Of a DNA stretch of 24,641 nucleotides, positions 10,148 to 24,641 are shown piece after piece. This DNA comes from a virus. The stretch is taken from positions 1 to 24,641 of IMG/VR virus record IMGVR_UViG_3300032070_000774. One strand, given 5' to 3'. Both the position numbers and the translations under genes were made by a program. How positions within the stretch are numbered: the stretch's first letter is position 1; each line of letters begins with the position of its first letter. The notes under the pieces were generated by a model. The model was given only the letters and a program-made list of their open reading frames with translations. It was not told where the DNA came from and searched no databases.

Positions 10148-10450
10148 TTGCCTTCTCGAAAAAAACAAGAAGATCCATGGTGGTTTTCCCCAACTATCTT
10201 TGACATCATGGCTACAGCCAAAGTATTGCAAAAATTCAATTCAGCGATGCTTCAAAAAATCTTTCATGCGATGACACGATTGATGTACCCAAATAGACCC
10301 AGACGTGCTAAGAGTAGTTGGACAGAAGCAGTCGATGTAGATGGCGCAACCTTCCAGTTGAGTTGTTATATCGATGAAAATGCAAAAAAAATCGTAGTAA
10401 CGTATATAAAACCCCCGAAAAAAATGATGAGATCTCGTAGACACAAATAG
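10148..10450 (+). CDS. Small basic protein, possible toxin paired with a Panacea protein
   Basis: A 100-residue protein of unrecognised family with a TTG start. It begins with Lys/Trp-rich residues (DPWWFSPTIFDI), then a helix MATAKVLQKFNSAMLQKIFH, and ends in beta strands (TFQLSCYIDENAKKIVVTYI) and a basic tail. The next gene, three bases on, carries a Panacea-type domain, and in known PanAT systems the partner is a small toxin of diverse fold. The beta ending is loosely RelE-like, but no catalytic residues can be assigned. An internal ATG at 10208 is a second possible start. Gene existence is likely; the toxin role is inferred from its neighbour. Confidence 0.5.
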   Translation: MPSRKKQEDPWWFSPTIFDIMATAKVLQKFNSAMLQKIFHAMTRLMYPNRPRRAKSSWTEAVDVDGATFQLSCYIDENAKKIVVTYIKPPKKMMRSRRHK

Positions 10451-10462
10451 AAGGTGAATGGA

Positions 10463-11119
10463 TTGGAATCAAGATGGATTGAAACTGAAACCACTATCGA
10501 CACAGTCGATTGGAGAGGTGAGCCTATACAAGTGACAAGAGTCAAGGCGTTGCAAAATCAAAAAACTGGAGAAATTCTGGTATATCCGTCTGAAGTAGCC
10601 AAAGCTGAAATCAATCAAATTGCAGAAGAATTAGGCATTTGCCCTACAGATGTGGGAACATTGTTAATGATACTTGCTAAACCAGGCAATTTCAATGAGG
10701 GCGATGTCTTCTACAAATATCATTTGCAGAAGATGATGTTTTATATGTGGAAATCATTGAGTAGAGTTTATGGCGATTCACTTCCACTAGACCAATTTAT
10801 TCCAGCAGAAAATGGGCCTGTTCCTGAACATTTAGACAGTGATTTGCAGAGATTTGAGGAGAAAAAGCTGATTAGAACGCGATCTGAAAAATGGAAAGAC
10901 GCAACGAATAAAATAGTTACATCGAAGAGAATAATGCTAACAGAAGAAGGAAAAAGAATAGCTGATGAGTTGTGGCGTAGACTACCAGACCCATATAAAG
11001 AAATTGCCTTAAGCGTAAAAAAACGGATATACCCTCTAAGCCCAGACAGAGTTCGCGAATTAGTCCATAAAGAATTTCCCGAATACAAAAATAGCTACAT
11101 AAAGAATGACATAGAGTAA
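10463..11119 (+). CDS. Panacea (SocA/DUF4065-like) domain protein, probable antitoxin
   Basis: About 218 residues from the TTG at 10463, chosen because AAGGTGA lies five bases before it (a GTG at 10454 is also open). Counting from 10454, residues about 20-50 (RGEPIQVTRVKALQN, KTGEILVYPSEVAKAE) resemble an MqsA/YgiT-type N-terminal unit that has lost its zinc Cys. Residues 90-130 carry the Panacea signature: LQKMMFYMW, then a G, F-x-x-A and GPVPEHL. The C-terminus (SPDRVRELVHKEFPEYKNS) also matches the family. Panacea domains neutralise many unrelated toxins. The T-rich sequence after the stop is a likely terminator. The family call is by motif; the function is inferred. Confidence 0.65.
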   Translation: MESRWIETETTIDTVDWRGEPIQVTRVKALQNQKTGEILVYPSEVAKAEINQIAEELGICPTDVGTLLMILAKPGNFNEGDVFYKYHLQKMMFYMWKSLSRVYGDSLPLDQFIPAENGPVPEHLDSDLQRFEEKKLIRTRSEKWKDATNKIVTSKRIMLTEEGKRIADELWRRLPDPYKEIALSVKKRIYPLSPDRVRELVHKEFPEYKNSYIKNDIE

Positions 11120-11127
11120 ACTGCAAA

Positions 11128-11160
11128 TTCCCCTCTTTTGTTTAATGACTTTTTTGTTTT
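11128..11160 (+). terminator. T-rich candidate terminator after the Panacea gene
   Basis: CCCCTCTTTTG and ACTTTTTTGTTTT follow the stop of the Panacea gene. Such pyrimidine/T-rich ends are typical of archaeal termination and would keep this unit's transcript apart from the tail genes. The site overlaps the end of the opposite-strand transposase fragment. Confidence 0.4.
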
Positions 11161-11396
11161 GATGCTTTCTTGATTAAGGACAGCCAATTTTGGCTTGAAT
11201 CAACATCAATCTTTGCTTTTTGCGCTGGCGTTTTGCCGTCTAACGCTATGTGCGGTCTTATGAAGTTGTAGTAGATTCTCATTCCATCCATCATAGTCTG
11301 TGCAGAAGCCTCTTGATCTAAGCCTCTCATTACTTTGTTTCTCTGTCTGATAGTGCCATGAAGTCTCTCTACCATGTTGTTGTTTGACCGATCTGC
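11142..11396 (-). pseudogene. Truncated transposase, C-terminal DDE part
   Basis: The minus-strand frame encodes about 85 residues matching the end of a DDE (IS6/IS240- or rve-like) transposase: ADRSNNNMVERLHGTIRQRN, KVMRGL, MRIYYNFIRPH, ALDGKTPAQKAKID. The Glu after NNN-x-V is a probable third catalytic residue. The N-terminal domain and first two Asp are missing. Upstream of residue 56 the frame is the shadow of another gene. The break lies at 11396 next to GCATGCATGC. No terminal inverted repeats were found. It is therefore a scar of an insertion sequence and cannot be active. Confidence 0.8.
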
Positions 11397-11432
11397 ATGC
11401 ATGCATTTGGCCTTCTGGGGACGGGAAATTTT

Positions 11433-11552
11433 ATGATTGGTAAACTGAAGCGTCTTAGTAAGCTTGTGTGCGAAAAGTGTTCTGTAGCCGATTATTCTGT
11501 TTGCGTTAATTGCGAGATTAAAAAGTTGATAAATGAGCTGATGGAAAAGTGA
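11433..11552 (+). CDS. Tiny two-CxxC protein, possible zinc finger
   Basis: A 39-residue reading frame that ends in GTGA overlap with the next gene. It carries C13-x2-C16 and C24-x2-C27, spaced as in a compact zinc knuckle, between basic helices (MIGKLKRLSKL and IKKLINELMEK). The GTGA coupling and two clean CxxC pairs make chance unlikely. A GGGGACGGG stretch lies just upstream. It lies right beside the transposase scar and is the first gene of the neck and tail operon. Function unknown; nucleic-acid or protein binding is plausible. Confidence 0.55.
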   Translation: MIGKLKRLSKLVCEKCSVADYSVCVNCEIKKLINELMEK

Positions 11553-13168
11553 ACGTTCCACAAAGCTATTACGATTTCATAATGCATTACGCACCGTATT
11601 TTTACGTTATCCCAACATTGATGACAGCGGACTCGCTGGCTGGCCAGAAAAATGTGACAGTTGCGGATGGCACAAAATTTCAAGCGGGCTTTCCGGTGCA
11701 GATCTACGATAACTCCAATAGCGAATGGAATGTTGTTGGAAGTGTCAATGGCAACATTGTGACGATGCAGAATAACCTTGTGAATACTTATCATGTGGCA
11801 AATGGCGGAACAGTTGAAGGCCCAGATCCTGCTTATGGGCAAGGCGTGTTTCCAGCCGCTTTTGCGATTGACTTCCTATATCAAGCCTACAGTGCGCCTC
11901 AATTCGCTGCGAACCAAGCTGCCATTCTCGCGGAGATCCAGAGCCTAGCAAACTTCATTCTAACGCAGCAGTGCATGAACGCTTCAAAGAATGCTTACGG
12001 TGGTTTCGCCAGCAGTGTCGGCAGTACACAGTATTATGCTGTTGATGCGGCAAGATGTATCCCAAGCCTTCTCAGAGCTTACGCCTTAACAAATACAGCC
12101 AGTTATCTTTCAGCCGCGGTTCTCGCTGGCTACACTTTCCTTCATAATATGCAAACTCTTCCTGTCTTTTTTGGCATTTTCGATAGGTATTACGGTGGTT
12201 TCGCCAGGTACGTCGACATCAACGATAACTGGAGCAGGTACATGGATATTGAGCCAATTTATGGGTTTATCGGTTTGCAGATGCTCGCAGAAACTTACGA
12301 TGTGGGCAACGCTAGCACATATACTACTATGATGAGTGATGCGATTGCGTTCCTTCGAAGTGGCTTTGAGCAACTTTACCTTTATTTTGACCCGAAACCG
12401 TATGGTGACGGAAAATGGCATCGAGTCGGCTTAGGTGAAACTCAGGTTTATGATGATCCTATTAGCTTCGCACTGCTGGGCTTGTATACATATGAAGGTT
12501 GGTCTGCAAGCTGCCAGAGAGTCTACAGTTTTGTGGAGACGATCCGAGCTTCAGCCCAGTACCCAGCCTATAACCCAGCGATTTGTTGGCCAGGCTACAT
12601 TGACGTCGTGACTCGTTTTCCAGCGTGCGCCTATTACGATGCAGTCACAAGCGGAATATTATGTAAGATAAGAGCAGCACATGACAAGCCAAGCCTCGCC
12701 TACAGCATGCAAATAATTAACATGTATCAAACGCAGTGGATGTATTGGGGTCCACAGTTCACTGATTACTCGCCAATAACAGCGCAAAAGGCTATGACAA
12801 ACGTAACTTGGCTTGCGCAGCTATTCCTTGCTTATCAGGACCCTTCAACAGATATAACGCACATTCTAAGCGTGAATGGTGAAGGTCTGCTTCTCTATCC
12901 GGTGCAGCAAGCGGCTGACCAAGTGACGTGGGGATCGCCGCTTAATCTATTGGGCTTGGTGACTTTGGGCGCAGTGGGCGAGATTGTCTTGGAGCCTGGC
13001 TACATTACTGAGGACCATATTACGGTTTACAGCTTTTTGCCAGTGCGTGTGCATGACAAGATAAGGCGTGCAGGCGTCGACTATGAAGTTATTACAGTGT
13101 CGGTTTCTGACTTGAACGGTGATCCTCAAGTTTACAAGAGCGTCTGCAGGAAGTTGATCAATCAATGA
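11549..13168 (+). CDS. Neck protein with a large alpha/alpha-toroid-like domain
   Basis: A 539-residue protein from a GTG start. The C-terminal 50 residues (ITEDHITVYSFLPVRVHDKI, then AGVDYEVITV and VCRKLINQ) look like a phage head-closure or stopper module. Residues 30-90 form a beta-rich unit. In between, about residues 95-445 consist of repeated helical hairpins rich in Tyr, Gly and Trp (AARCIPSLLRAYAL, YIDVVTRFPACAYYDAVTSG) resembling alpha/alpha-toroid enzymes such as glycoside hydrolases or C5-epimerases. No catalytic pair can be fixed. It sits next to tail genes with ATGA coupling to the next gene, so it is probably a virion protein; a glycan-cutting role is inferred. Confidence 0.6.
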   Translation: MNVPQSYYDFIMHYAPYFYVIPTLMTADSLAGQKNVTVADGTKFQAGFPVQIYDNSNSEWNVVGSVNGNIVTMQNNLVNTYHVANGGTVEGPDPAYGQGVFPAAFAIDFLYQAYSAPQFAANQAAILAEIQSLANFILTQQCMNASKNAYGGFASSVGSTQYYAVDAARCIPSLLRAYALTNTASYLSAAVLAGYTFLHNMQTLPVFFGIFDRYYGGFARYVDINDNWSRYMDIEPIYGFIGLQMLAETYDVGNASTYTTMMSDAIAFLRSGFEQLYLYFDPKPYGDGKWHRVGLGETQVYDDPISFALLGLYTYEGWSASCQRVYSFVETIRASAQYPAYNPAICWPGYIDVVTRFPACAYYDAVTSGILCKIRAAHDKPSLAYSMQIINMYQTQWMYWGPQFTDYSPITAQKAMTNVTWLAQLFLAYQDPSTDITHILSVNGEGLLLYPVQQAADQVTWGSPLNLLGLVTLGAVGEIVLEPGYITEDHITVYSFLPVRVHDKIRRAGVDYEVITVSVSDLNGDPQVYKSVCRKLINQ

Positions 13169-14167: not shown

Positions 14168-15043
14168 ATGAGTGTTGAAACATATGGCGCACATGAGTGC
14201 CGAGTCTATTTCGTGCAAGAAACAACATATGGGCAGATACCGGCGAATCCTTCGATGCTGGGAATAAACAACGAAGGTCCAGAGCCGAAAATAGCCCCAA
14301 GCCTCATTGAAATCATGGGCGTAGGCAGCAGAGACCTTCAAAACTTGGTCGCTGGCATGAGAAAAGTCGACTTAAAGATTCCGCACACATTGAGTCCTCT
14401 TGCTCCCATCAATTTCATCCAGCACGTGCAGACATTGAACAGCCTAAGCGTTCTGGTGGCTTACTACAAGGGCTTATTTGCGAGCCCAACAAACATCATT
14501 GCTCATCTACATACTGGCTGCAAAATCGATAAAGTAAGCGTCTCATGCAAAGTTGATGACATAGTTAAGGCAGATGTTGAGCTGATTGGGCAAAATGTTT
14601 CGAGATCAACATCACTACCTACTGGCGCAACCTATGGCGACTACCCTGGAGGGATTCCATTTTACAATACTAAAGTGCAGAAAGGAGCTGCTGGAGGCGG
14701 AAGCTTAACAGATCTTACTGATGTCACGGACTGGAAGTTTGAGATTCAGAACAACCTTAAAGCTGTCGTTACGATTCAGAGTGGCGGAACAGGGCTTTTG
14801 CTGAAGTATCTGCGTGAACGCAACCGAAAACTGAGTGGAGAGCTTACGTTAGAGTTTGAGAATGACTGGGCATTAGCTGATCTCTTGGCTGATTCTCAAT
14901 TTAGCCTTAACTTCAACTTGGGTGGTGGAAAGGCAGCTCTGTTTACGTATTGCAAGTGGGAAGAGTTCAATCCAACGACAAAAATCAAAGATCTCGTAAG
15001 CGTTAAACTGAAGTTTCTCGCTCAAACCGTAGCCATAAGTTAG
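14168..15043 (+). CDS. Major tail tube protein
   Basis: A 291-residue protein, the likely subunit of the tail tube. The sequence is beta-rich with a long N-terminal arm and the pattern CKIDKVSVSCKVDDIVKADV, then DWKFEIQNNLKAVVTI, RNRKLSGELTLEFE and VSVKLKFLA, as in siphoviral tube proteins (Phage_tube-type folds). It precedes two tail chaperone genes and a tape measure gene, which is the standard order. The ATG is preceded by a purine-rich AAAGGTGAAAAAAC site. High expression is expected. Confidence 0.85.
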   Translation: MSVETYGAHECRVYFVQETTYGQIPANPSMLGINNEGPEPKIAPSLIEIMGVGSRDLQNLVAGMRKVDLKIPHTLSPLAPINFIQHVQTLNSLSVLVAYYKGLFASPTNIIAHLHTGCKIDKVSVSCKVDDIVKADVELIGQNVSRSTSLPTGATYGDYPGGIPFYNTKVQKGAAGGGSLTDLTDVTDWKFEIQNNLKAVVTIQSGGTGLLLKYLRERNRKLSGELTLEFENDWALADLLADSQFSLNFNLGGGKAALFTYCKWEEFNPTTKIKDLVSVKLKFLAQTVAIS

Positions 15044-15051
15044 GTGATTCT

Positions 15052-15390
15052 GTGCGAACGGAAACACTTGAAGTTGACGAACGTTTTGGTAAGGAATACG
15101 CTGGCCGCTACGTTTTCAGAGAGATCACGTGGGCTAAACGCAATCGCATTCTGCAGAAGTACACACAGTATAGTCCTAAAACGGGCACTGTAATAACTAC
15201 GGATTACGTGGCTATTCAAGCTGAGACAATATGGGCTTCGCTTAAGGAGCAGCCGGATGGCAAGCCCTTATCGTTAGAAAAGCTGCTCGGCGAAGATGAG
15301 AATGGCATTCCCATAGGCTTAGGCGAATTACTCAGCAAGACAGCTAACAAGCTCAACGCTCTTTCAATAGAAGAGACAAAAAACTCTTGA
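15052..15390 (+). CDS. Tail assembly chaperone, first frame (gpG-like)
   Basis: A 112-residue protein that guards the tape measure protein during tail assembly. It starts with GTG preceded by TAGGTGATTCT. The sequence is charged and mostly helical (YAGRYVFREITWAKRNRILQ, then a helical second half). It sits directly between the tube and tape measure genes, as gpG does in lambda-like phages. Its last codons contain A AAA AAC (15378-15384), a canonical -1 slippery heptamer in the right reading phase, just six bases before its TGA stop, giving a route to the fused form. Confidence 0.8.
   Translation: MRTETLEVDERFGKEYAGRYVFREITWAKRNRILQKYTQYSPKTGTVITTDYVAIQAETIWASLKEQPDGKPLSLEKLLGEDENGIPIGLGELLSKTANKLNALSIEETKNS
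15378..15384 (+). promoter_or_regulatory. -1 ribosomal frameshift slippery site
   Basis: The heptamer A AAA AAC lies in the gpG-like frame with codons ACA AAA AAC, so tandem slippage by one base re-pairs both tRNAs on AAA AAA. The -1 frame after it continues as CTC TTG AGG without a stop into the next open frame. It lies six bases upstream of the zero-frame stop. This is the classical arrangement for G/GT tail chaperones. Confidence 0.75.
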
Positions 15391-15584
15391 GGGCGATGAG
15401 GCGGAAGAGCCCGCACCAGTCCGTCACAGAGTTTAGGTTATGCAAAGAGTTCGGGTGGACCATTCAGCAGCTTTATCAGCAGCCGAGCAAGAAAATCAGC
15501 GAGTTTCTCGTTATCTTAAGTGAAATAGATCAACAGACACAGGAAGAAATTGACAAGGCTAAAACAGACTCGAGGCGCCGTTAG
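15384..15584 (+). CDS. Tail assembly chaperone, second frame (gpT part of gpGT)
   Basis: The T-like part encodes FRLCKEFGWTIQQLYQQ followed by a helix ending in EIDKAKTDSRRR, the usual FGWT-type T domain that contacts the tape measure protein. It lies in the -1 frame relative to the upstream gene, and is joined to it by the slippery site at 15378-15384. The fused product would be about 177 residues (111 plus 66). An independent start (ATG at 15396 after GAGGG) is possible but weaker. I annotate the fused portion from the slippery site onward. Confidence 0.78.
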   Translation, partial: LLRAMRRKSPHQSVTEFRLCKEFGWTIQQLYQQPSKKISEFLVILSEIDQQTQEEIDKAKTDSRRR

Positions 15585-15587
15585 AGA

Positions 15588-15962
15588 ATGAGTATCCAGT
15601 TTCGTGTTGAGCTTAGTGGCGTTGAAGATTTTGCTGCTAAAATGCGCACGTTAGACGAGGCTATGCAGGACTGTGTCCAAGAAGCTTTGAATCAGACAGG
15701 TCAAATGGTTGTGCGTCGTGCTCAGGAGTTGGCGCCGGTACGGACTGGTCGCTTGATAGCGGGGATTTACGCTCAGATCATTTACAAGTGGGTTGTCAAA
15801 GTCGCGTGCATGGTGCCCTACGCTTTGTTTCAGGAACTTGGCACAAGATACATTAGTCCCCGCTACTTTTTGACGCGGGCTTTGGCGGAGAATGCGAGTA
15901 ACTTTATGTTTATTGTCTCTGCGGCTTTGGAGCGTGCTGCAGAGGAGGCGGGTGCAGAATGA
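15588..15962 (+). CDS. HK97 gp10-like tail completion / neck protein
   Basis: A 124-residue protein with the hallmark order of HK97 gp10-like proteins: an N-terminal VELSGVEDFAAKM segment, a helix ending in a APVRTGRLIAGI loop, then a beta region, a VPYALFQELGTRYISPRYFL segment, and a C-terminal helix. The TGRL and GT-x-x-x-x-PR-x-FL positions are the family signatures. In most siphoviruses this gene lies before the tail tube gene; here it follows the chaperones, an unusual but not unique order. It is ATGA-coupled to the tape measure gene. Role in closing the tail or neck is inferred from family. Confidence 0.75.
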   Translation: MSIQFRVELSGVEDFAAKMRTLDEAMQDCVQEALNQTGQMVVRRAQELAPVRTGRLIAGIYAQIIYKWVVKVACMVPYALFQELGTRYISPRYFLTRALAENASNFMFIVSAALERAAEEAGAE

Positions 15963-16876
15963 GTACAATGGGTGAGATAGCTGTTACGATTCGTGCGGTG
16001 AATGAGGCTACGCCCGAGTTTGAAGCTGTCGCAAGTGATGCGGCGCGTATGGCTTCAGAGGTTGGCGCTCAGGCCGTAACTATTCATACAGAGAATTTGG
16101 CAAGCCCAGAGATTAACAGGGTTGCTGAAGACGCTGCAAGGGTTAAGGCTGAGGTTGAAGGTTCGCCGATAACGATTACTTTCGCGCCAGTTGAAGTCCC
16201 ACCCTTGCCACCGCTCGACACTGCGCCTATCCAAGCAAGCCTTAACGAAGTCGGAGTTGCTGCAACAGGGATGAGTGCAGATGTTGAAGCTGCGTCGACG
16301 AGTTTTGATGATATGTCTGCGCATGCTGAAGCGACTATGGTAAGCTTGCGCACGGTTGCAGGTGGCATACGGAGCTTCAGTATGATGGGTATGGAGCTTA
16401 CGACTGTAGCGACTGACTTCGGCATACTCGATAGAGAGACGGCGAAGTACGTGCGTGGACTGATGGCTGTTATAATGATTGTTTCCACTGCTGCTCGTAT
16501 GTACAGCTTCTTAACGCTCATGACGACTGGGCATACTGCTGCTCTAGCCGTTGAAACTACCACGGAAACGGGGGCTACTGCAGCCGAGACTTCTCATTCA
16601 GTCGCTCATGGAATTTATGCTGCCGCTTGCAACATTGCAACGATGGCTGAAAACGCCTTAAACATTAGCCACGCAACCTTCCTGGCTCTAACAGGCGTCG
16701 GGATCGGCGTGATTATTGCTGCTGCAGTTGCCATTTCCTATTTCGCCTCTCAAATGAATCAAGCGACAGAAAGCGTTAAAAGTTATAATGCTGCCGCAGC
16801 GGAAACCTCAGCGAAAACAAGCAGCATCACAAGAGCACAAGAGCAATCTTTGTCACGGAAGGGCGTTGAGCCATGA
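15959..16876 (+). CDS. Tail tape measure protein (short)
   Basis: A 305-residue protein rich in Ala, Thr, Glu and Ser, with helical heptads, starting inside the previous stop (ATGA). It has three to four hydrophobic segments (around residues 160-180, 195-215 and 240-265), typical of tape measure proteins that insert into the host membrane. Position after the chaperones and before the tail hub is diagnostic. Using the usual figure of about 0.15 nm per residue, the tail would be near 45 nm, so it is short for a siphovirus. It ends by ATGA overlap with the hub gene. Confidence 0.8.
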   Translation: MSTMGEIAVTIRAVNEATPEFEAVASDAARMASEVGAQAVTIHTENLASPEINRVAEDAARVKAEVEGSPITITFAPVEVPPLPPLDTAPIQASLNEVGVAATGMSADVEAASTSFDDMSAHAEATMVSLRTVAGGIRSFSMMGMELTTVATDFGILDRETAKYVRGLMAVIMIVSTAARMYSFLTLMTTGHTAALAVETTTETGATAAETSHSVAHGIYAAACNIATMAENALNISHATFLALTGVGIGVIIAAAVAISYFASQMNQATESVKSYNAAAAETSAKTSSITRAQEQSLSRKGVEP

Positions 16877-19628: not shown

Positions 19629-22076
19629 ATGCCAACAATAGTCAGCACTGCTGCGGGACAGTATGCTGCGGCTTTAGGTAACAGTAGAAAGCTTTTCCGA
19701 GACGCTTATGGCAAATACATCGCAATATACAAAAATTCGCATGTTATGCTTGGCTACTGCAACAATGACCCGCCCACAAGTGGATGGGTTGACAACGATT
19801 TGGGCTCAAGTTATGGTGCTATTACTGGAGAAGAGTTCGGAATAGCAGCAGCATACGATAGTACGAATGACAAGCTTATGGTTATCGCTAATTATAGCGC
19901 GACAGCTGTTAACGTATTTCAAATAACTTTTTCACGAGATGCAAACCATAACATCACAGGTTATACAGCTGGAACTGCACTAAATCTTATAGCAACATAT
20001 TCAGCGTTTCATAATCCTTCCTTATGGATGCTTCATAACGGTGAAGTTGCCTGTGTGTGGGGAGACGATAAAACAGGTGGCGCAAAACACAGTGTCGTCA
20101 AGTTTTGCCGTTTAGTCTTTGGCAGTCCGCCGACTTACAAGAATGCTGCTGGAACTGCTTCGCAAATTGACACAATATTTGTAGATTACACAGGTGCTAT
20201 TGTCATTCGATTTCCTACAGTAACTCAGCGAATAAATGCGGGAACTGGACAATATGATTTATTCGCCTTTACCACATATAATAATACCGACGTAAGTGTT
20301 AGAAAAGTTAAGGCTACTTGGGGTTCACCCAACTGGGCATGGGGTTCAGAAGTCACCAGTCCGTCAAACAGTACAAATTTTAAATCTACTTTTAGTGCTT
20401 ATGATACAATTAATGGTTTAATAGTCTATGGTACATCAGGCGTATGTAGAACAATAGCAGCTGATGACACGGACTCTAACGTTTCACCTCCTACCAATCC
20501 GAACGCATCAGTTAGTCTTGCTATTAACCAAACAAACGGAGATTACTACATTTGGTACCCTAAAAGCTTAAACGTTTATTATCAAAAACGTTCCAGCGGT
20601 TCATGGGGAAGCGAAACTCGATTCACCACAACGGCGAACGAAAACTATCCCAGTTGTAAAGTTGACGGTGCAGGCAACAAGATAGAACTGATTTGGACGC
20701 ATTACACAGGCTCAGCCTACAACGTTTACTATGATTATCTTTCCTTAGCTGCAGGGGTCACGTATCCTGTCAGCGTTTCTGAATTGCTTGGGTCCCCGTC
20801 TGATTCTGTGAGTTACAGTGTGAGAAGGGCTGCGGCGGTTTCTGAGAGTTTAGGCAGTCCCTCTGATGCAGTGACAAGGGTTCTTAATGCTTTCAGAACC
20901 GTTTCAGAAGCTTCAATAAGTGCAAGCGACGCCCTTACCGCTGGTTTATTCAAAAGCATCAGCGTTTCTGAACCTTTGGGTTCTTCATCTGACTCCGTGG
21001 GCTACACTTTAAGGAGAACAGTTTCAATATCTGAACCTTCCATTTCCATGTCAGACTCGCCTACTTACACTCTACGCCGAGACAAAGCCGTGTCAGAGCC
21101 CACCATCACAGTTTCAGATGGAATAGTAAGAGTGCTCTGGGCATACAGAACCGTTTCTGAGCCTTCGATATCTGCAAGCGACGCCGTTACCCGCGGTTTA
21201 TTCAGAAGCATAAGCGTCTCCGAAACTTCCATAAGCGTCACGGATTCAACGGGCTACATGTTTTACCGAGGCAGAGTCCCTTCTGAATCTTTGGGTTCTG
21301 TTTCTGACATCGTTGGCTATAATGTTAGGCGCGTCATCACTATCAGTGAGCCTTCGATATCCATTTCAGACTCTCCAGCACGGGGATTATTCAGAAGCGT
21401 AAGCATTTCTGAACCGACCGTTTCCGTTTCAGACTCGCCAACCTACAACATAAGACGAATAATCTCAATAAGTGAACCTTCCATCACAGTTTCGGATGGA
21501 GTGACGCGTTTTTTCTGGGGATACAGAACAATCTCGGAGCCTTCAATTTCGGTAAGTGACAGCGTTGCTCGGGGCTTGTTCAGAGCAGTGACAATTTCAG
21601 AAGCTTCAATCACGTTCTCAGATTCAACCGTGCAAGTGCTCCGCAGAAGCGTGACGATTTCTGAACCCACTATATCAGTATCGGACAGCCTTTCCTATAA
21701 TCTGCGTAGAGTTGCATCAATATCTGAGCCGAGTATCACCGTGTCAGACTCTATCGCTGCTGTTCTATGCAGACTGGTTTCAATAAGCGAAACAAGCATC
21801 TCCGTGTCGGACTCCGTTGTAAAGCTGTTTTGGGCGTACAGAACTCTTCAAGAACCCACCATTTCAGCGGCAGACAGTGTTTCCGCTGAGAAGTATGTTA
21901 TAGGCCTCGAAAGAAGTGTCTCAGAACCCAGTATCTCGGTTTCGGATAGCCTTTCATACGTGATGATAAGAGGACGAATGATCACTGAACCCGGCATCCC
22001 GTTTAAGCTGGAACTTGTGATAGGCAACGTAACCATCGATTTGAAAACGGGTAAAGTCGGATTTGTAGTTACTTAG
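19629..22076 (+). CDS. Large tail-tip / receptor-binding protein with 21-residue repeats
   Basis: An 815-residue protein. Residues 1 to about 380 form a beta-rich region with repeated strands and turns (DAYGKYIAIYKNS, AAAYDSTNDKLMVIANYS, VDGAGNKIELIWTHYTG), resembling a beta-propeller or BNR/sialidase-like domain. Residues 383-784 are nineteen copies of a 21-residue unit, [VI]SEPSISVSDS followed by a variable half with an Arg or aromatic. It ends with a short beta segment. Such propeller-plus-repeat stalk designs fit a receptor-binding fibre; function is inferred. No signal peptide is seen. The ribosome site GGAGTGATG is good. Confidence 0.7.
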   Translation: MPTIVSTAAGQYAAALGNSRKLFRDAYGKYIAIYKNSHVMLGYCNNDPPTSGWVDNDLGSSYGAITGEEFGIAAAYDSTNDKLMVIANYSATAVNVFQITFSRDANHNITGYTAGTALNLIATYSAFHNPSLWMLHNGEVACVWGDDKTGGAKHSVVKFCRLVFGSPPTYKNAAGTASQIDTIFVDYTGAIVIRFPTVTQRINAGTGQYDLFAFTTYNNTDVSVRKVKATWGSPNWAWGSEVTSPSNSTNFKSTFSAYDTINGLIVYGTSGVCRTIAADDTDSNVSPPTNPNASVSLAINQTNGDYYIWYPKSLNVYYQKRSSGSWGSETRFTTTANENYPSCKVDGAGNKIELIWTHYTGSAYNVYYDYLSLAAGVTYPVSVSELLGSPSDSVSYSVRRAAAVSESLGSPSDAVTRVLNAFRTVSEASISASDALTAGLFKSISVSEPLGSSSDSVGYTLRRTVSISEPSISMSDSPTYTLRRDKAVSEPTITVSDGIVRVLWAYRTVSEPSISASDAVTRGLFRSISVSETSISVTDSTGYMFYRGRVPSESLGSVSDIVGYNVRRVITISEPSISISDSPARGLFRSVSISEPTVSVSDSPTYNIRRIISISEPSITVSDGVTRFFWGYRTISEPSISVSDSVARGLFRAVTISEASITFSDSTVQVLRRSVTISEPTISVSDSLSYNLRRVASISEPSITVSDSIAAVLCRLVSISETSISVSDSVVKLFWAYRTLQEPTISAADSVSAEKYVIGLERSVSEPSISVSDSLSYVMIRGRMITEPGIPFKLELVIGNVTIDLKTGKVGFVVT
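20775..21980 (+). repeat. Nineteen tandem 63-base repeats within the tip gene
   Basis: The array holds 19 units; eighteen are 63 bases (21 codons) and one (21846-21917) is 72. The protein consensus starts VSEPSIS or ISEPTIT, then VSDS, followed by 11 more variable residues. A higher-order pattern is visible: units ending in W-x-YRT or FRT are followed by units with GLF at residues 15-17 in several places (units 2-3, 6-7 and 12-13). A partial copy (ITEPG) follows. The bases vary enough that the repeats are old rather than freshly copied. Confidence 0.85.
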
Positions 22077-22885: not shown

Positions 22886-24340
22886 ATGCACATGAGAAAA
22901 CATGAATATTTTCAAATACAACAATATAGGAGACGATACGACCGCAAAACAGACAGATTCATAATTAACTTAGGCTACAAGACGGCTCCGCCGAAACCGA
23001 CAAGCAGAGTTGTGAGCGTTGCTGAAGGCTTCGGACTTGGCATGGATCAGTGGGAGAAGTTCATAGTTTACGATAATGTTGAGTTGAAAATAGGACGTAC
23101 TGATATTACATATATCACGGGCGATTCAGGCTCAGGCAAAAGTGTGCTGCTTAAGGCTTTGGAAAAAGATATCAAAGGGGACATGGGCGTAAGCTGCATT
23201 AACATTACCGACATCCAGCCTGAACCTGGCAAGCCTCTAATCGAAACAGTCGGCAAAACCCTCGAAGAAGGCTTGGAGCTTCTGAGTAAGGTAGGCTTAA
23301 ACGATGCTTTCCTTTTCCTTCGCAGTTATGAGCAGCTTAGCGACGGACAGAAATACCGTTATAAAATTGCGAAAATGATGGAGAGCCAAGCTCAATTCTG
23401 GGTTATGGATGAAGCTATGGCTACGCTTGACAGGGACACAGCTAAAATCGTTGCTTTTAACCTTCAGAAGCTCGCCAGGCAGCAGGGTAAAGCGGTTTTG
23501 GCAGCCACAACCCACGCAGACCTTTTTGAGGATTTAAACCCGTCAGTGCACATTCACAAGCGATTCGGCAAAGAAATAACAGTAAACTATTACCCAAACA
23601 CGCCGGCAAGGGAATGCAGTCTCATAAGAGAAATGCGAATAGAGCAAGGCACTGTTCAAGCTTGGCGCATGCTCGCAAGCTTCCACTACCGAAGCCACAA
23701 AATAGCAGGACCGCGCAAAATCTTCTGCCTCAAACGTGGAGACGAACTCTGCGGAGTAATAGTCTACTGCTATCCGCCACCCACATGTTTTGGGCGCAGG
23801 CTCGTTCTGCCAAAAATGACCATGAAAGAATTGAATGAAAAGCTAAGCATCATCAGCCGAGTTGTTGTTCATCCGAAATACCGCACCATAGGTTTAGGCG
23901 CAAAACTCGTAAAGGAAACATTAGCAAAAGCTGGAACGCCATATGTGGAAATGCCAGCAGTCATGGCGAAATACAATCCCTTCGCGGAAAAAGCGGGCAT
24001 GGAGAAAATAGCTGAGCAGCCTCCGCCCAAAGAGGCTTTAAGGGTTGCAGAGACACTACAGCACTTAGGCTTTAACGTCCAGCTTTTAAGCAGTGAAAAA
24101 TACGTTTTGAGAAAGCTGCAGGCCTTAAGAGGCGAAGACCTGACAAAATTAAGGGAGGCATTCATTAAACATAGCCACTTACGGTTTATGAAGTATTTCT
24201 TCTGCCACATGCCTTTCGGAAGGAAGGAAGTTTACGCCAAAGAAGTAATGAAAGCCAACCTTGAAAGGCTTTCGCGCTTGATCAAAGTCTGCGGCTTCCT
24301 TATGCAGACTAAAGTTTACCTCTTCTGGAAACGAAGGTGA
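22886..24340 (+). CDS. ABC-type ATPase fused to a GNAT acetyltransferase (COG2401-like)
   Basis: A 484-residue soluble protein. Residues about 40-230 are an ABC ATPase: Walker A GDSGSGKS (79-86), signature LSDGQ (151-155), Walker B with D175 and E176 (VMDEA), and H210 (THAD). The C-terminal half is a GNAT domain with RVVVHPKYRTIGLGAKL (acetyl-CoA loop R333-x-x-G336-x-G338). No membrane segments are present. This fusion is known as COG2401. Mu Mom, a DNA-modifying acyltransferase, has the same GNAT fold, so a nucleic-acid modifying role is conceivable but unproven. Start: ATG 22886 or 22892, both after GGAGAG. Confidence 0.85.
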   Translation: MHMRKHEYFQIQQYRRRYDRKTDRFIINLGYKTAPPKPTSRVVSVAEGFGLGMDQWEKFIVYDNVELKIGRTDITYITGDSGSGKSVLLKALEKDIKGDMGVSCINITDIQPEPGKPLIETVGKTLEEGLELLSKVGLNDAFLFLRSYEQLSDGQKYRYKIAKMMESQAQFWVMDEAMATLDRDTAKIVAFNLQKLARQQGKAVLAATTHADLFEDLNPSVHIHKRFGKEITVNYYPNTPARECSLIREMRIEQGTVQAWRMLASFHYRSHKIAGPRKIFCLKRGDELCGVIVYCYPPPTCFGRRLVLPKMTMKELNEKLSIISRVVVHPKYRTIGLGAKLVKETLAKAGTPYVEMPAVMAKYNPFAEKAGMEKIAEQPPPKEALRVAETLQHLGFNVQLLSSEKYVLRKLQALRGEDLTKLREAFIKHSHLRFMKYFFCHMPFGRKEVYAKEVMKANLERLSRLIKVCGFLMQTKVYLFWKRR

Positions 24341-24500
24341 ATGGCAAGTTTTGTCAACAGAAAAAAAGGGAAGGTTAAGCAGCGCCGAAGTTCGGTCGCA
24401 GAACTTGTCTAGCGCGCATGCATGCTGAAGGGTGCGAACCTACAAAGCCCACAGTCATAAGCAAACTTTTAGTAATAGTTCGTTCATGATCTCTACAGGG
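24341..24500. other. Intergenic stretch before the HicB-like gene
   Basis: About 160 bases without a supported gene. A 23-codon frame at 24341-24412 starts directly on the previous stop and lacks a spaced ribosome site. An imperfect hairpin (AAGTTC and GAACTT arms, about 24389-24407) and the palindrome GCATGCATGC (24416-24425) are present. AT-rich sequence around 24464-24490 may hold the promoter of the next gene. Confidence 0.4.
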
Positions 24501-24641
24501 ATGATCGGCTTGAAATTTGCAGTTGTCGTCGAAAAAGATGAGGAAGAATACTATGTGGCTTCCGTTCCTGAACTACCCGGTTGTCATACCCAAGCAAAAA
24601 CGCTTGATGAGTTGACAACAAGAATCAAAGAGGCTATCGAA
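24501..24641 (+). CDS. hicB: HicB-like antitoxin, partial at window end
   Basis: The first 47 codons encode the start of a HicB-family antitoxin: MKFAVVVEKDEEEYYVAS-type opening, VPELPGCHTQA and TLDELTTRIKEAI. HicB usually neutralises the mRNA-interferase HicA and represses its own operon; its C-terminal DNA-binding half lies beyond the window. No hicA is visible upstream, so it would lie downstream or be absent. Start at the ATG (24501) or a TTG (24510), the latter better placed after GGATGATC. It may belong to the host or to the viral cargo. Confidence 0.8.
   Translation, partial: MIGLKFAVVVEKDEEEYYVASVPELPGCHTQAKTLDELTTRIKEAIE

Follow-up and report, generated by a model that had tools for sequence, protein, structure and literature searches.

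The question raised by this locus is whether an archaeal virus joins its two tail chaperone frames by a programmed -1 ribosomal frameshift, or translates the second frame on its own. The window, that is the whole stretch of DNA analysed, comprises 24,641 nt (positions 1 to 24,641 of the IMG/VR virus record IMGVR_UViG_3300032070_000774), and the tail genes and junction features given below are all on the plus strand. The two frames, G and T, sit between the tail tube and tape measure genes in the order tube-G-T-gp10-TMP. Upstream of G lies the tail tube gene (14168-15043; Pfam Phage_tube_2, PF18906, E 1.3e-19), and downstream of T lie an HK97 gp10-like tail completion gene (15588-15962; PHROG_5, E 8.9e-20, and PF04883) and a probable tape measure gene (15959-16876), assigned from its position and a weak match to PHROG_339 (E 0.0095).

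Gene G (15052-15390, frame 0, 112 aa) begins with a GTG codon preceded at 3 nt by the Shine-Dalgarno sequence AGGTGAT. The T segment that ribosomes would translate once they had slipped into the -1 frame covers 15384-15584 and has 66 codons ending at a TAG (15582-15584). T is identified as a PHROG_9001 tail assembly chaperone by profile match (E 5.5e-11, residues 7-56) and contains the motif CKEFGWT, in agreement with the FGWT-type T domain originally assigned to the -1 frame. Sequence searches with gene G gave no matches. Its AlphaFold2 model (pLDDT 89) was compared with the viral structure library BFVD, where the top match (E 2e-5) is a protein from an uncultured virus of archaea, followed at E 1e-3 to 2e-3 by tail assembly chaperones of a siphovirus, HCTV-1 and Bacillus phage Gemini. 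The best match in the PDB is YqbN, a weak one (E 0.38). The modelled structure of G points to a tail assembly chaperone fold.

The slip site and its conservation

Frame 0 of G ends GAG ACA AAA AAC TCT TGA, with the heptamer A AAA AAC (15378-15384) read in phase as ACA AAA AAC; X is the third base of ACA, which gives the correct X XXY YYZ phase. T lies in the -1 frame, which is open from stop to stop between 15348 and 15584. The original prediction located the heptamer and its phase correctly, and its 177-residue fusion agrees with the 111 + 66 aa that a -1 shift would join. It counted six bases from the heptamer to the stop of the first frame, which is wrong: the TGA (15388-15390) follows after three (TCT). 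The number of heptamers means nothing by itself, as A AAA AAC occurs in the window no more often than expected by chance (9 found versus 9.8 expected); what exceeds chance by far is where it lies and in which frame. The case for a frameshift is convincing because of conservation among related junctions and not because of the heptamer count.

Scans of viral and genome sequences yielded 161 distinct G/T junctions, which form 115 clusters at 90% and 73 clusters at 80% DNA identity. Alignment of homologues had been proposed as a check on the slip site, and in all 161 junctions T is in the -1 frame with an in-phase X XXY YYZ heptamer. The heptamers are T TTT TTA (103 junctions), A AAA AAC (37), T TTT TTG (15), A AAA AAT (3) and A AAA AAA (3), and A AAA AAG is found at none of these 161 related archaeal-virus junctions. 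No in-frame G-T fusion occurs among them, and the alignment of the fused GT protein runs unbroken through the junction. One apparent junction without a heptamer (L049:3935) was rejected as a 31-bit chance match lacking T.

The constraint is visible at the level of single bases. Slip codons are AAA or TTT in 100% of cases, compared with 159 of 324 Lys codons (AAA) and 101 of 352 Phe codons (TTT) elsewhere in the genes. At the first two slip codons, the one that contains X and the XXY codon, synonymous identity reaches 1.00, versus a background of 0.50-0.52. Base X is invariably A at the junctions with an A6 heptamer (class A) and invariably T at those with a T6 heptamer (class B). This identity holds for all 161 junctions, and in an earlier set of 146 junctions X was spread over 8 different codons in class A and 9 in class B.

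Loci in named genomes belong to Bathyarchaeota in 22 of 23 cases, with a 1.72 Mb chromosome and a contig of 2.15 Mb among the sequences that carry them. The window is syntenic with Bathyarchaeota loci, at identities of 74% for the terminase (TerL), 77-83% for an ABC-GNAT gene and 35-73% for all tail genes. The sole match in a non-archaeal genome (L131) lies on a 24 kb contig of a Bipolaricaulis MAG. It is the single hit across 100 genomes from this phylum and probably reflects misbinning. These relationships indicate Bathyarchaeia (sediment archaea) as the host group of the window virus. Separately, the single Bathyarchaeia genomes G003 (A05DMB-2), G188, G253, G313 and G325 hold three to five G/T pairs each, i.e. 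several related proviruses.

Two junction designs and a downstream stem-loop

The 161 junctions follow two designs, the second of which, like the stem-loop downstream of the heptamer, the original prediction overlooked although it had the slip site right. Class A (43 junctions, the window included) has A6C/T/A followed by a stem-loop, and class B (118 junctions) has T TTT TTA/G and no downstream structure. The class B slip site lies one codon downstream of that of class A (EET-RF-LIRAIRR versus EET-KN-LLRAMRR). The distance from heptamer to stop seen in the window is shared by 34 of the 43 class A junctions.

In the window the putative stimulator is a two-tier stem-loop at 15385-15430 (-17.2 kcal/mol, z -1.8). 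Its apical hairpin (15401-15414) pairs GCGG at 15401-15404 with CCGC at 15411-15414, and its basal helix (15388-15426) pairs 15388-15390 with 15424-15426 and 15392-15393 with 15421-15422. We evaluated structure with single-sequence folds, shuffled and synonymous controls and a pair counter. The stem-loop of the window is only modestly stable by this measure, with 13 of 200 shuffles folding equally well, which counts against the frameshift reading. Across class A, a scan from 240 nt upstream to 150 nt downstream places the structure maximum in the 50 nt 3' of the heptamer, where the mean is -15.8 kcal/mol (z -1.8 versus dinucleotide shuffles) and synonymous recodings reach -10.6.

The apical helix can be formed, in either of two registers, by 28 of 33 distinct class A sequences, and the register of the stem-loop, basal helix included, varies among relatives. 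Among 22 aligned class A sequences, one pair of third codon positions in the equivalent of this apical helix covaries as GC, UG, AU, CG and UA, with 13 double changes, a number reached by none of 500 shuffles. Structure 3' of the heptamer is thus backed by covariation, in class A only. Conversely, class B folds below its control (mean -4.5 kcal/mol versus -6.5 for synonymous recodings). A comparison with Rfam gave no match.

Class B junctions differ from class A also in what surrounds T. From the last upstream stop to the RLC motif, 102 of the 118 have no ATG, GTG or TTG in the T frame that could start T, and translation of T in these 102 would therefore depend on the shift, barring a rarer start codon. 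We also observed that frame 0 of class B G (for example L016:8334-8456) continues across T, mostly for 123-138 nt, so that the unshifted G bears a tail of 40-46 aa.

Competing explanations and known systems

Based on these comparisons, we consider G/T very probably to be a -1 programmed frameshift tail-chaperone pair of a Bathyarchaeia siphovirus. The G/GT arrangement originally proposed for an archaeal virus is well supported by the PHROG_9001 match, the G model and the Bathyarchaeia relatives. Most ribosomes would terminate at the TGA at 15388 and release G, while a minority would pause on ACA-AAA-AAC, with the P-site tRNA-Lys and the A-site tRNA-Asn re-pairing one base back on AAA AAA. T would then be translated to give the GT fusion, whose ratio to G would likely be low and fixed. 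In the clade of the window the stem-loop, which begins 3-7 nt 3' of A AAA AAC, would probably raise slippage; in the class B clade T TTT TTA/G would work without such a stem-loop. A role in tail length is suggested by analogy with lambda.

Alternatively, T could be translated independently by termination and reinitiation, with ribosomes stopping at TGA 15388-15390 and restarting at TTG 15387 or at ATG 15396, the A-run being incidental. The window has a TTGA overlap and, 5 nt past the G stop, a T-frame ATG (15396-15398) that may serve as a restart for free T. A start codon at this +12 position is present in 43 of 43 class A junctions (ATG in 41, GTG in 2), 20 of them with GAGG ahead of it, and the annotation of Bacillus relatives likewise gives T its own start. 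However, the sole Shine-Dalgarno-like match of the window, GAGG, is just 3 nt upstream of the ATG, a Shine-Dalgarno match is absent in 19 of the 43, and T is intact in class B despite its 102 startless junctions. Reinitiation also fails to explain why AAA and base X are perfectly conserved and why a stem-loop is present at slip-site distance, and we regard it as very unlikely. Homologues without the slip site and with a clear start for T had been named as the finding that would speak against a frameshift; instead, 161 of 161 keep the site. Restart at +12 may nonetheless supply free T in class A, beside the shift, and this codon may alternatively be conserved because its TG pairs within the stem-loop.

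Slippage of the archaeal RNA polymerase on A6 or T6, which would provide the -1 frame through an altered mRNA with the ribosome uninvolved, is in our judgement less likely still. All homologues do carry six-base homopolymer runs, but polymerase slippage usually requires runs longer than six. It has no need of the ribosomal phase or of a stem-loop 3-7 nt downstream, nor of the fixed class of last base that we observe (C, T or A after A6; A or G after T6, never C or T). The position of a homopolymer exactly at the junction might suggest that G and T had once been one frame and that the gene has decayed, or that a sequencing error misread the A-run. This explanation has a negligible probability and is refuted by the junction set: 161 distinct junctions from many samples use two motifs, place every T in -1 and include zero in-frame fusions.

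The -1 frameshift that is very probable here resembles that of lambda gpG/gpGT and the related shifts of other tailed phages (Xu, Hendrix and Duda, 2004, as summarised in PMC5009743). In both, the tube and tape measure genes flank two frames, a -1 shift would take place near the end of G at an X XXY YYZ heptamer, and the chaperone fold is shared as far as the model of G indicates. Unlike lambda, the group of the window has an archaeal host, A AAA AAC or T TTT TTA/G as slip site, and a covarying stem-loop in one clade.

Recoding in an archaeal virus, as originally suggested, is supported by our data but has precedent, even with the same heptamer. According to the reviews PMC5009743 and PMC8211752, a tail-chaperone -1 frameshift was inferred for the haloarchaeal viruses HVTV-1, HCTV-1, -2 and -5, with A_AAA_AAC as the slip site of HCTV-2; the slip site of Hardycor1 is G GGA AAT (PMC7911831). 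In addition to the inferred chaperone shift and the identical heptamer of HCTV-2, the predicted structure of G resembles the HCTV-1 chaperone. The haloarchaeal viruses differ in belonging to another archaeal phylum, in their few sequences and in the sites other than that of HCTV-2 (G_GGA_AAC, G_GGA_AAG or G_GGA_AAT). An experimentally tested archaeal -1 frameshift is that of Sulfolobus solfataricus fucA1 (PMC8211752), which differs from G/T in being a cellular enzyme gene and in having no comparable conservation set. The word "frameshift" is absent from a paper on Bathyarchaeia viruses (PMC10848311), and a provirus paper (PMC11705971) mentions neither recoding nor slippage. The evidence for archaeal -1 frameshifting has so far consisted of a single cellular gene that was tested and a few viruses of haloarchaea for which the shift was inferred. 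The 161 junctions, which are not the first archaeal case, form a large comparative one from another archaeal lineage; they add a new host group, a conservation test of this size, two designs and a hairpin.

Bacterial relatives are found among Bacillus and Geobacillus phages with a homologous T, of which Riggi, Blastoid, Jayan and GBK1 have A AAA AAG and Andromeda and Eoghan have A AAA AAA. In these six phages the heptamer is at -10 from the G stop, the same distance as in the window. They share with the window a PHROG_9001-type T, an A6 heptamer at -10 and, as judged from Gemini, a similar predicted G fold; sequence homology between the archaeal and the Bacillus G was not detected (probability 1%). 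They differ in the last base of the heptamer, which is G or A and never C, and in that T is annotated as a separate gene. As a side observation, the Bacillus/Geobacillus phage loci L231, L232, L233, L235, L236 and L237 have T annotated with its own start despite an in-phase A AAA AAG/A, and these annotations are probably missed frameshifts.

Possible cassette exchange and other genes of the window

A AAA AAC is a weak slip site in E. coli, which counts against the frameshift reading. The strong site in E. coli is A_AAA_AAG, whereas A_AAA_AAC is strong with mammalian ribosomes and HIV uses U_UUU_UUA (PMC5009743). The HIV-1 gag-pol heptamer U_UUU_UUA corresponds to T TTT TTA of class B; class B has no downstream structure, and the genes are unrelated.

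The two designs appear in otherwise closely related loci. Both flanks of L100, a class A locus, are 93-94% identical to those of L096/L097, which belong to class B, but identity is 55% over the 47 bp that span slip site, spacer and hairpin, while within-class pairs of similar flank identity have a mean of 92% over the same 47 bp. An assembly error is unlikely, since each design of the apparently swapped pair was seen in two samples (L100/L101 versus L096/L097). A single host genome (G211) has both designs, at L204 and L220. Parsimony counted 10 and 5 slip-site changes on the trees of G and T, respectively, from few alignment columns with which a single change is also compatible.

We tentatively propose, with slightly less than even confidence, that Bathyarchaeia viruses have two exchangeable cassettes at a single gene junction, A AAA AAC with a stimulatory stem-loop and the HIV-type T TTT TTA/G with none, which have been swapped and avoid the bacterial AAG, pointing to slip rules in archaea like those of eukaryotes. 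That AAG is absent fits such rules but is confounded by shared ancestry. An ARAGORN inventory of tRNA-Lys, tRNA-Asn and tRNA-Leu in one Bathyarchaeia genome missed many tRNAs, which are probably intron-bearing. If the proposal is true, archaeal ribosomes and tRNAs would obey eukaryote-like slip rules. A host genome that contains both slip sites, one with a hairpin and one lacking it, amounts to a natural experiment, to which the bacterial relatives add a third site, and it makes the slip rules of the archaeal ribosome directly testable.

Several other genes of the window deserve mention. Between the head and tail genes, 10148-11119 holds a small ORF and a protein with a Panacea (SocA-like) antitoxin domain (PF13274, E 1.3e-7), likely a toxin-antitoxin pair. 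A fragment of a DDE transposase (rve_3, IS240-like) lies on the minus strand at 11142-11561, inside the structural operon of the virus. The long protein encoded at 19629-22076 has many SISEPSISVSDS-like motif repeats and is probably a tail fibre. The ABC-GNAT gene (22886-24340) encodes an ABC-type ATPase with a fused GNAT domain, and its 77-83% identity to Bathyarchaeia provirus copies is a conservation far above that of the tail genes. At 24432-24641 is the start of a HicB-like antitoxin gene that runs past the end of the record.
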